Shown here piece after piece: positions 2,012-63,846 of a stretch of DNA of 64,000 nucleotides. The notes under the pieces were generated by a model. It was not told the origin of the DNA and searched no databases. It saw nothing but the letters and a program-made list of their open reading frames with translations. How positions within the stretch are numbered: the first letter of the stretch is position 1; each line of letters begins with the position of its first letter. The stretch is from Rhodospirillales bacterium (lineage in GTDB: Bacteria; Pseudomonadota; Alphaproteobacteria; ATCC43930; CGMCC-115725), in the NCBI GenBank assembly GCA_947473305.1, contig CANJCB010000003.1, forward strand, positions 1 through 64,000. Direction: 5' to 3'. A program made the translations under genes and the position numbers.

Positions 2012-2039
2012 CTTTAAACGTCCCTCTCCGGCCATCCCT

Positions 2040-2286
2040 TTCTTGTCCTTCTCCGGCCCTTTAGGGAGGGAGAGGGAAGGAGCCCGTCGCGTGGGCGACG
2101 GGAAGGGTGAGGTAGGGTCTCACCGCTCGCGAAATCTGGTAAAAATTTACACGCGGCCAGATGCTCCGGCGCCTCAGCGCCCTCGCCCCACCTCATCCTA
2201 AATCCTTCTCCCCCCAGCCTTTCGCACAAGCAAGCTTGTGCTGGCGGCGCGCGAAGCTCTGCTTCGCTTTGGGCGGAGAAGGACTC
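2040..2286 (-). repeat. Intergenic mosaic repeat, family A copy 1, with an internal insertion
   Basis: Read on the minus strand, this copy begins GTCCTTCTCCGCCC and continues GGAGAAGGATTTAGGATG, GAGGTGGGGCGAG and CTGAGGCGCCGGAGCAT. It ends with a CTACCTCACCCTTCCCG arm. It matches the copies at 20041-20193 and 62110-62238. Unlike them it carries about 55 extra bases (around 2216-2270) between the two arms of the first stem, and these contain two further palindromes, CACAAGCTTGCTTGTG and GCGAAGCAGAGCTTCGC. The element fills the purK-COQ9 gap, between convergent genes. No ORF is credible here. Confidence 0.75.
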
Positions 2287-20040: not shown

Positions 20041-20193
20041 AGTCCTTCTCCGCCCCTTGGGGGGAGAAGGATTTAGGATGAGGTGGGGCGAGGGCGCTGA
20101 GGCGCCGGAGCATCTCGCCACCTGAGAAACCTACCTCACCCTCCCCGCTTCGCGGGTCCCCTCCCTCTCCCTCCGCAAGCGGCCGGAGAGGGA
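20041..20193 (+). repeat. Repeat family A copy 2
   Basis: The first stem is CTTCTCC / GGAGAAG around a GC-rich loop, followed by GATTTAGGATGAGGTGG. A nested structure follows: outer GGCGAG / CTCGCC encloses inner GGCGC-TGAG-GCGCC. The element ends with a CTACCTCACCCTCCCCGC arm and CTCCGCAAGCGGCCGGAG. It lies between convergent uxs and the UbiB-like gene. Confidence 0.85.
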
Positions 20194-20201
20194 CTCCCTG
20201 C

Positions 20202-21542
20202 CTACTCCGCCCCAGGCAATCCCACCGCCTTCAGCGCCTTCGCCTGGCGTTTCGCCAGCGTCTCCACGTCGAAATCCTGGATCAGTTCGTGGAAGAGGCG
20301 GTACCAGTTCACCTCCGCCTTCAGCCGGAAGAACACCGAACCTAAGCCAATCGCCGCGCGGTCCATGAAGACGAATTCCCGCGGAGGCTTCACACCGCCT
20401 AGACGCCGCACGTCGCGGTGGACGGTTTCGGCCACGTCGCGGCCATAGACGCCGGTTTCCTTTTCCTGGATGCGGCGGACCCGGTCCTCCAGCAGCGGCG
20501 CATAGACGAAATGCGCCCAGCGGTTCAAGACCTCGACCATCTCCGAACTCAGGTCCTTGAAGCCCCAGGTCTCATAGGCATGAACGGCCAGATCCCGGTC
20601 GTTCCGGTCCAGCGCGTGGTAGAGGTCGATCACCCCCCGCACGAAGGAGGGCCGGAAAACCCGGATGCAGCCGAAATCCAAGAGGTTCACCCCCTGGTCC
20701 GCCCGCACCGTGTAATTCCCCAGATGCGGGTCGCCGTGGATCGTCCCATAGCCATAGAAGGGCACGTACCAGGCGCGGAACATGTTGTGGGCGATGGCGT
20801 TGCGCTGCTCCAGCGGCGCGCTCTCCGCCTACACCATGGGCGTGCCCTCGAGCCAGCTCATGGTGAGCAACCGCTTCGTCGAGAGATCGGAGAAGGGCTC
20901 CGGCACGGAAACCCCCGCCTCGCCTTTCAAGGCGGCGCGGTAGAAGCGCATGTGCTTTGCTTCCCGCTCGTAGTCCAATTCCTCGCGCAGCCGGTCGGCG
21001 ATTTCCTTATGGATCTCGTCGGTGGTGATCGCCTTATCCATGCGCTCGTAGAGCGACATGATGAGCTTCAACTGCTTCAGGTCCGCTTCGACCGCCGAGC
21101 CCATGTCGGGATATTGGAGCTTGCAGGCGAGATCCTCTCCCTCCGGCCCCACCGCCCGGTGCACCTGGCCCAATGAGGCGGCCTTCACCGCCTCATGCTC
21201 GAAGCTCCGAAAGCGCTTCTGCCAGTCCGGCCCCAATTCCCCCTGCATCCGGCGCTTCACGAAAGGCCAGCCCATGGCGGGGGCGTTGGATTGCAGCTCC
21301 GCCAATTCGTTGGCGTATTCCTTGGGCACCGCGTCGGGGATGGTGGCGAGCAATTGCGCCACCTTCATCAAGGGTCCCTTCAGACCCCCCAGCGCAGCCT
21401 TCAAATCCGACGCATGGCGCTCCCGGTCGAGCGACATGCCCAGGTACCGCTCGCCCGCCAGCCGCGCCGCGAGGCCCCCCACCGCCGACCCAACCTGGGC
21501 GTAGCGGCGGACCCGCCCGCCCAGGGAATTGTCATCGGCCAA
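20202..21542 (-). pseudogene. ABC1/UbiB-family atypical kinase interrupted by an in-frame amber codon
   Basis: The 447-codon frame is open from the ATG at 21542 except for one TAG at 20829-20831, then continues in the same frame to the stop at 20202. The N-terminal part holds KGPLMKVAQLLATIPDAVP (the KxGQ-type ABC1 motif, near 55-73) and VKAASLGQVHRA, the Ala-rich ATP loop. After the amber come HGDPHLGNY (catalytic loop) and LLDFGCIRVF (DFG metal loop). Both catalytic halves are needed, so this is a broken or readthrough-dependent copy. The family supports ubiquinone synthesis or lipid handling. It lies 3 bases after pepF and is probably co-transcribed with it. Confidence 0.85.
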
Positions 21543-62109: not shown

Positions 62110-62238
62110 AGTCCTTCTCCGCCCTTCAGGGGGAGAAGGATTTAGGATGAGGTGGGGCGAGAGCGGGCTTTAAGCCCGAGCATCTCGCCACTGGCGAAAC
62201 CTACTTCACCCTTCCCGCTCCGCGGGTTCCTTCCCTCA
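62110..62238 (+). repeat. Repeat family A copy 3
   Basis: CCTTCTCCGCCC with GGGGGAGAAGGATTTAGGATG begins it. The outer arms GGCGAG / CTCGCC enclose an inner stem GGGCTT-TAAGCCC, different from GGCGC-GCGCC in copy 2 but in the same place. It ends in CCTACTTCACCCTTCCCG and supplies the stop codon of the convergent GMC gene (62236-62238). Confidence 0.85.
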
Positions 62239-63846
62239 CCCCGCCCGGATGAAATCCGCGCAGCGTTCGCCGATCATGATCGAGGGGGCGTTGGTGTTGC
62301 CGCCGACGATGGTCGGCATGACCGAGGCGTCCGCCACCCGCAGCCCATCGATCCCGCGCAGCCGCAACCGGCTGTCAAGCACGGCCAGCGGGTCGCCGTC
62401 CGGTCCCATCCGGCAGGTGCCGACCGGGTGGTAGAGCGTGGCCACCGTCCGCAGGACATAGTTCCGCATACCCTCGTCATCCGCCCCGGCGGCCCCCGGC
62501 ACGAGTTCCCCGCTGTTATAGGACGCCAGCGCCGGCGCCGAGGCGATCCGGCGGGAAATCTTCAGGCCCTGGACCAGAACCTCCACATCCGCCTCGTCCG
62601 CCAGGAAATCGGGCTCCAGGGCCGGGCGGTCGGCGGGATCGGCGGACGCCAGCCGCACGCGGCCCCGGCTCTTGGGCCGCAGCAGGGTCGAATAGATCGC
62701 GAAGCCGTGGCGACGGGGCACCGCCCGGTTGAGATCCTTCAGGGCGGCCATGAAGGTCAATTGCAGGTCCGGGGCTTCCACCTCCGGCCGGGTTCGGACG
62801 AAACCCGCCGCCTCCACCATATTGGAGCTGATCGGCCCGCGCCGGGCGAAGGCATAGTTCAAGGCCCCCAGGGCCATGCGCGGGAAGGACCGGGGCGTGA
62901 GCGCATAGCTCCGGGCGCTGGGGTCTTCGAGTTGCAGCACCACCGTCGGATGGTCCTGGAGGTTCTCACCGACGCCGGGGAGGTCGAGGATCGGCGCGAT
63001 CCCCAATCCGCGCAGCGTCTCCGCCGGGCCGATGCCGGAGAGCATCAGAAGCTGCGGGCTGTTGATCGCCCCGCCGCAGAGGATCACTTCCCGCGTGGCG
63101 GTGAGGTCGGCATTCTCCCCGTTCCGCCGGATCGAGAGGCCCACCGCGCGGCGGCCCTCGATGCGGATTTTCGTCACCAGCGTGTCCGGCAGGACCGTCA
63201 GATTCGGCCGGTCCAGCGCCGGATGCAGGAAGGCACGGGCGCTGCTCCAGCGCTCGCCGTTCTTCTGCGTCACCTCGACGAGGCCGAAACCGTCCTGGGT
63301 CGGGCCGTTGAAATCCTCGTTGCGCGGGAACTGCAACTCCGCCGCCGCCTCGACGAAGGCATGGGCGATGGGGTTGGGCGAGCGCACGGGGGCGACGTTG
63401 AGTTCCCCGCCCCTGCCGTGGAAGGGCGTCTCCCCCCGCTCCCGGTTCTCGTGGCGGCGAAAGACCGGCAGCACGTCCTTATAGGCCCAGCCCTCGTTGC
63501 CGAGAGCCGACCATTCGTCGAAATCACTCGCATGGCCGCGCATATAGACCATGCCGTTGACCGAGCTCGTCCCGCCGAAAAGCTTGCCGCGCGGACAGGG
63601 AATGGCATGGCCGAAGAGCCGCTCGGTCGGGGTGAAGCTGTGCTGCCAATTGTATTTGGCATGCGGCAGCAGCAGGGTGTTGCCGATGGGCAGCGTCGTC
63701 CTGACCTTGGCCGACAGCCCGCGATCCGAAGGCCCCGCCTCGACGAGGCAGACCCGGGTCTTGCCATCCGCCGTCAGGCGATTGGCGATCACGCAGCCCG
63801 CTGAGCCGGCGCCTATGACGATATAGTCGAAGGCGCCGGTTTCCAT
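62236..63846 (-). CDS. GMC-family FAD-dependent oxidoreductase (choline-dehydrogenase-like)
   Basis: The 536-residue enzyme has the ADP-binding motif YIVIGAGSAGCVIANRLTADG at the N-terminus. GMC signature 1 lies in RGKLFGGTSSVNGMVYMRGH near 86-105 and signature 2 in GAINSPQLLMLSGIGP near 260-275. The active-site His is in YHPVGTCRMG near 470, and GGNTNAPSIMIGERCADFI lies near the end. It oxidises an alcohol such as choline or a long-chain alcohol; no betaine genes are nearby, so BetA is not assigned. It is followed upstream by the purA tail on the same strand. Confidence 0.91.
   Translation of the reverse strand: METGAFDYIVIGAGSAGCVIANRLTADGKTRVCLVEAGPSDRGLSAKVRTTLPIGNTLLLPHAKYNWQHSFTPTERLFGHAIPCPRGKLFGGTSSVNGMVYMRGHASDFDEWSALGNEGWAYKDVLPVFRRHENRERGETPFHGRGGELNVAPVRSPNPIAHAFVEAAAELQFPRNEDFNGPTQDGFGLVEVTQKNGERWSSARAFLHPALDRPNLTVLPDTLVTKIRIEGRRAVGLSIRRNGENADLTATREVILCGGAINSPQLLMLSGIGPAETLRGLGIAPILDLPGVGENLQDHPTVVLQLEDPSARSYALTPRSFPRMALGALNYAFARRGPISSNMVEAAGFVRTRPEVEAPDLQLTFMAALKDLNRAVPRRHGFAIYSTLLRPKSRGRVRLASADPADRPALEPDFLADEADVEVLVQGLKISRRIASAPALASYNSGELVPGAAGADDEGMRNYVLRTVATLYHPVGTCRMGPDGDPLAVLDSRLRLRGIDGLRVADASVMPTIVGGNTNAPSIMIGERCADFIRAG

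Follow-up and report, generated by a model that had tools for sequence, protein, structure and literature searches.

Covariation of a proposed third strand with its hairpin in BoxC/PIT-type inverted repeats of a Rhodospirillales bacterium

What does a repeat preserve when both arms of its hairpin change together? Three copies of one repeat family lie in the 64,000-nucleotide stretch of Rhodospirillales bacterium DNA analysed here (hereafter referred to as the window), and a reading of the sequence alone had proposed that they are selected for a structure in RNA or single-stranded DNA and may act at transcript ends. The family has 51 matches in the window's own genome, and its GGRTGAGGTRGG core occurs at 74 genomic sites, compared with 0 for the reversed control. 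An Rfam scan returned no match above the gathering score.

The BoxC/PIT class has been recognised since the 1990s. The E. coli BoxC repeat, renamed PIT and then TM_ECO, has no known function (PMC4666352; Hoyne et al. 2000 cited there); in vitro it adopts a purine-motif triplex (PMC4666352). Here we propose that the repeats of the window are probably BoxC/PIT-class miniature mobile elements, REPIN-like and constrained to a DNA fold of hairpin plus third strand. The repeat class and the in vitro triplex were already known, as was spacer covariation in REPINs (PMC3116915); the new part is the covariation of the third strand, for which we found no earlier report in the open-access literature, including the text of PMC4666352.

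Architecture of the elements

Each half-element consists, in order, of a Y strand (CCYTCTCC), loop 1, an R1 strand (GGAGARGG), loop 2 and an R2 strand (GGRTGAGG, then T[A/G]GG). Y and R1 form a hairpin. The R2 strand that comes next neither base-pairs with R1 nor complements Y; instead it mirrors R1, and matches it in antiparallel orientation with the G.GC, A.AT and T.AT triads that define BoxC/PIT elements. As in that class, the units form inverted pairs and are intergenic. One hairpin (hairpin B) lies in the spacer between the two R2 strands, and some halves contain another (hairpin C) inside loop 2. In copy 2, 8 of 8 triads match in each of the two halves. The features of the three copies are as follows.

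20041 to 20195, no strand assigned: copy 2, a complete element, an inverted pair of two half-elements with ends AGTCC...GGACT
20044 to 20051, plus strand: copy 2 half 1, Y strand CCTTCTCC (pattern match)
20063 to 20070, plus strand: copy 2 half 1, R1 strand GGAGAAGG, which pairs with Y
20076 to 20083, plus strand: copy 2 half 1, R2 GGATGAGG, the mirror match of R1 and proposed third strand of a triplex
20093 to 20106, plus strand: copy 2, the covarying spacer stem GGCGC-TGAG-GCGCC (hairpin B)
20134 to 20141, minus strand: copy 2 half 2, R2 GGGTGAGG
20142 to 20162, minus strand: copy 2 half 2, loop 2, which contains hairpin C (AGGGGACCCGCGAAGCGGGGA)
20163 to 20170, minus strand: copy 2 half 2, R1 GGAGAGGG
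20185 to 20192, minus strand: copy 2 half 2, Y CCCTCTCC
2022 to 2286, no strand assigned: copy 1, an element with the halves in inverted order
2069 to 2076 and 2105 to 2112, plus strand: copy 1 left half (GG), R1 and R2
2191 to 2198 and 2204 to 2211, minus strand: copy 1 right half (AA), R2 and R1; loop 1 holds a nested palindromic insert
62110 to 62241, no strand assigned: copy 3; left half complete, with Y at 62113 to 62120, R1 at 62132 to 62139 and R2 at 62145 to 62152; right half cut short where it meets the 3' end of the GMC oxidoreductase gene
62160 to 62179, plus strand: copy 3, hairpin B variant, CGGGCT-TTA-AGCCCG and flanks

The three copies stand as the sequence-only reading had found them, with altered limits: copy 2 in fact extends to 20195, and copy 3 loses its right end to the neighbouring gene. 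The element ends are sharp, with flanks that look random beyond about four bases, and a test of these flanks gave no target-site duplication above that in shuffled flanks. Sharp ends, copy number, inverted pairs and the absent target duplication fit a REPIN-like mobile unit. A MITE of a DDE transposon would share the inverted ends, but was rejected on the duplication result.

The left half of copy 1 (window 2020-2054) carries two consecutive Y-like strands, CCCTCTCC and then CCTTCTCC; the second is mismatched to its R1, and the arrangement resembles a partial duplication. Furthermore, the nested palindromic insert GCGCAAGCnAGCTTGCGC occurs in loop 1 of several half-elements (window 2213-2275 and 5 further loci), sometimes followed by GCGAAGC...GCTTCGC, and leaves Y and R1 intact.

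R2 covaries with its hairpin

If R2 lies along R1 as a third strand, R1-6 is expected to agree with R2-3', R1-3 with R2-6', R1-5 with R2-4' and R1-4 with R2-5'. In viral contigs, some of which may be host or prophage DNA, we searched for set Y and R1 sequences, placed no constraint on R2 at the tested positions, and counted unique sequences. A or G at R1-6 predicts A or G at R2-3' in 709 of 719 sequences (R1-6=A, A 325 and G 2; R1-6=G, A 8 and G 384; odds about 7800). At the second position, R1-3=A is accompanied by A in 378 and G in 3 sequences at R2-6', and R1-3=G by A in 130 and G in 208; among sequences with a short loop 2 only, R1-3=G goes with A in 9 and G in 151. The two middle triads follow the same code. 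With R1-5=A, R2-4' is T in 154, A in 26 and G in 4 of 190 sequences, in combination with G at R2-5', and with R1-5=G it is G in 59 of 72; with R1-4=A, R2-5' is T or A in 15 of 18, and with R1-4=G it is G in 186 of 190. These last two associations reach p about 1e-40 (R1-5 with R2-4') and about 2e-18 (R1-4 with R2-5'). All p-values for these associations overstate the evidence, because the counts are of copies and not of phylogenetically independent events. The base preferred at the two middle triads is T, in agreement with a purine motif but not with a pyrimidine motif formed by the other strand. The associated triads include G.GC, A.AT and T.AT, and come from several phyla and about 20 loop contexts.

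Two non-mirror pairs served as controls. R1-3 and R2-3' show no overall association (odds 0.85, p 0.29). R1-6 and R2-6' are associated overall (odds 4.6), more weakly than the mirror pair, and this probably arises largely through a group with a mismatched R2: hairpins of the type CTTCCCC..GGGGAAGG with a long hairpin loop 2 retain GGATGAGG as R2, with one mismatch, in 135 of 175 viral-contig sequences. Among sequences with a short loop 2, each control pair has a weak association in the reverse sense (odds about 0.3), which stems from the way in which the four hairpin types were sampled and shared. In the GGGGAAGG hairpin group of the viral contigs, one triad is not maintained.

The same agreement is found in bacterial genomes. 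Among 61 related genomes, the R1/R2 states number AA 49, AG 3, GA 17 and GG 1099, and tables are significant within single genomes, such as this one (AA/AG/GA/GG 17/0/2/40, p 6e-13), in which two halves are mismatched. Named genomes from Pseudomonadota, Bacteroidota, Cyanobacteria, Chloroflexota, Bacillota and other taxa carry, where R1=A, A at R2-3' in 135 cases and G in 3. Moreover, G at R1-3 goes with G at R2-6' in 145 of 150 among the matches listed for 240 genomes of the class.

Amplification within a genome makes copies non-independent, and the R1–R2 match could have been inherited instead of maintained if only two or a few lineages (A/A and G/G) had spread. We consider such a founder effect unlikely, since the triplex code is followed at four separate triad positions and in several phyla. 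Identical loop contexts point the same way: each of 23 loop-2 sequences turns up unchanged in more than one R1/R2 state, nearly always AA and GG, and about 20 with both AA and GG and few mixed states speak against two simple founder lineages. Within this genome, the A/A state spans ATTTA, ATTA, CCG and TCG loops as well as one half with hairpin C.

The antiparallel purine triplex is the only structure known to us that demands a mirror match. A G-quadruplex was rejected, as it would not require A-to-A matching. The joint variation of R2 and its hairpin across many bacteria points to evolutionary preservation of the triple helix itself, and base-triad covariation is comparative evidence for its maintenance.

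Covariation of the spacer hairpin

Copies 2 and 3 had been described as sharing a GGCGAG...CTCGCC frame around different paired inner stems, and their sequences confirm this. Copy 2 reads GGCGAG GGCGC TGAG GCGCC GGAGCAT CTCGCC (window 20088-20120), and copy 3 reads GGCGAG AGC GGGCT TTA AGCCC GAGCAT CTCGCC (window 62156-62189); the inner stem of copy 1 is that of copy 2, inverted. Across the genome we collected 17 different inner stems, with a mean hairpin energy of -4.5 kcal/mol within copies versus -2.8 +/- 0.4 kcal/mol when the inner-stem halves were re-dealt between copies. None of 500 re-deals was as good, and the proposed covariation thus extends to the larger set. Changes on both sides of the spacer hairpin have already been described in REPINs (PMC3116915). 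An exact search for the inner cassettes gave 0 matches in the genome contigs outside the window's own genome, and the spacer cassette therefore seems to be confined to this species. Other genera of the family have conserved half-elements, with a spacer between the R2 strands that differs in sequence from genus to genus.

Perfect hairpins might be rebuilt without selection, by template switching, quasipalindrome correction or recombination between copies, and the inner stems do recur as discrete cassettes, as recombination predicts. Such processes can account for the Y–R1 pairing and for hairpin B, but not for R2: copying a complementary strand cannot yield a mirror match, which leaves R2 unexplained by template switching or gene conversion. 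As an account of the covariation as a whole, rebuilding without selection is therefore quite improbable.

Genomic location

In the window, each of the three copies sits between convergent genes, as the sequence-only reading had it. The neighbours are ordinary genes (purK and COQ9; an NAD-dependent epimerase and an ABC1/UbiB-like gene; an alpha/beta hydrolase and a GMC oxidoreductase), one of which has its closest plasmid-borne relative in Tistrella mobilis, at 71% identity, which accords with an alphaproteobacterial genome. The ABC1/UbiB-like gene adjoining copy 2 (window 20202-21542, minus strand) reads as two ORFs that match the ABC1 profile at 2-154 and 184-238; the two are separated by an in-frame TAG near 20829, which would mean a pseudogene, readthrough or an assembly error.

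Genome-wide, a codon-usage gene caller allowed 39 copies to be placed, 20 in convergent, 15 in tandem and 4 in divergent gaps. The window's own gaps of at least 100 bp (9 convergent, 9 tandem and 7 divergent) served as reference. Against the window's share of such gaps, convergent enrichment gives a binomial p of about 0.065, and avoidance of divergent gaps, the clearer signal, gives p of about 0.012. Divergent-gap avoidance is also reported for other REPs (PMC3733652).

Hairpins that terminate or stabilise the transcripts of converging genes would suit the convergent setting in the window and the tendency to avoid divergent gaps, and as RNA each of the two strands is predicted to fold stably (z about -3.7 and -4.0). 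Nonetheless, only about half of the genomic copies are convergent, 15 of 39 being tandem and 4 of 39 divergent, no T-run was noticed behind the hairpins, and we know of no RNA explanation for the R1–R2 mirror covariation. PIT elements are reported to lack terminator activity, the E. coli elements having neither promoter nor terminator activity (PMC4666352, citing Hoyne and Maher), and purine-motif triplexes are reported not to form in RNA (PMC4666352). The suggested action at transcript ends is accordingly not upheld, and we give an RNA-level element little credence.

A proposed fold in single-stranded DNA

Selection for a structure, and for one in single-stranded DNA, is the part of the sequence-only reading that is supported, and it is extended by the third-strand covariation; its RNA option is not supported. 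Given that purine-motif triplexes reportedly fail to form in RNA, single-stranded DNA is the probable target of the constraint. We envisage a non-autonomous element in which two inverted BoxC/PIT-type half-elements flank a variable spacer hairpin. Within a single DNA strand, each half would form its Y/R1 hairpin, and R2 would fold back antiparallel along R1 through the G.GC, A.AT and T.AT triads, with hairpins in loop 2 or the spacer bringing the arms together. Selection may retain this hairpin-plus-third-strand fold as the sequence drifts. The fold most likely lets the element spread or persist while the DNA is single-stranded, as during replication or in a transposition or recombination intermediate; a trans-acting enzyme would presumably move it, and copies would settle or survive mainly away from divergent promoters.

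Oligonucleotides closely similar to these halves form a triplex in vitro by NMR (PMC4666352). In E. coli, the triplex was not seen in vivo by DMS footprinting (PMC4666352); that paper reports one attempt at cellular detection, which failed, and comparative evidence bears on the same question. The triplex may nevertheless form in cells and be the selected trait. The covariation makes clear predictions, with AA and GG good and AG and GA bad, and offers a route to other DNA-triplex elements from sequence alone. More tentatively, the BoxC/PIT repeats of many bacterial phyla might form a class of miniature mobile elements for which a triple helix of single-stranded DNA, recognised by some factor, is the unit of selection, with a third strand that evolves with the duplex much as stems covary in structured RNA.

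Comparison with known repeat classes

A classical REPIN moved by a RAYT/TnpA-REP transposase would share the inverted pairs, the changes on both sides of the spacer hairpin and the lack of target duplication (PMC3116915), but is highly improbable here: a Y1 transposase was found neither in this genome nor in most high-copy relatives (those with 99, 93 and 80 copies lack one), and no GTAG or CGTC tag was seen at the stem foot. Y1/RAYT was likewise rejected as the mobiliser, because it is absent here and its presence in relatives does not follow copy number.

The elements resemble the GTAG/CGTC REP families (PMC3733652) as short palindromes that form dimers, lie mostly in unidirectional or convergent gaps and vary on both sides of the stem. 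CGTC-type REPs are, moreover, frequent in Alphaproteobacteria and lack a transposase (PMC3733652). Unlike those families, the present repeats have the extra purine strand R2, and neither tag was seen.

The likeness to REPINs (PMC3116915) lies in the inverted doublet around a variable, hairpin-forming spacer with changes on both sides, in a sharp unit without target duplication. The repeats differ from REPINs in the absence of an associated RAYT gene in this genome and of a REP tag, and in their third-strand constraint.

The closest parallel is with BoxC/PIT/TM_ECO. The strict 9-nt TM_ECO consensus CCCTCNCCCN3-6GGGNGAGGGN3GGGNGAGGG occurs 0 times in the window and 2 times in the genome. Unlike TM_ECO, the halves described here have Y/R1/R2 in A/A as well as G/G states, may hold a hairpin in loop 2, and are joined by a spacer hairpin cassette not found in the other species searched. 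Common to both are the Y-R1-R2 order and the purine-motif triad code (PMC4666352), together with the loop-2 types TTA and CCG/TCG, inverted pairs, intergenic location and high copy number.
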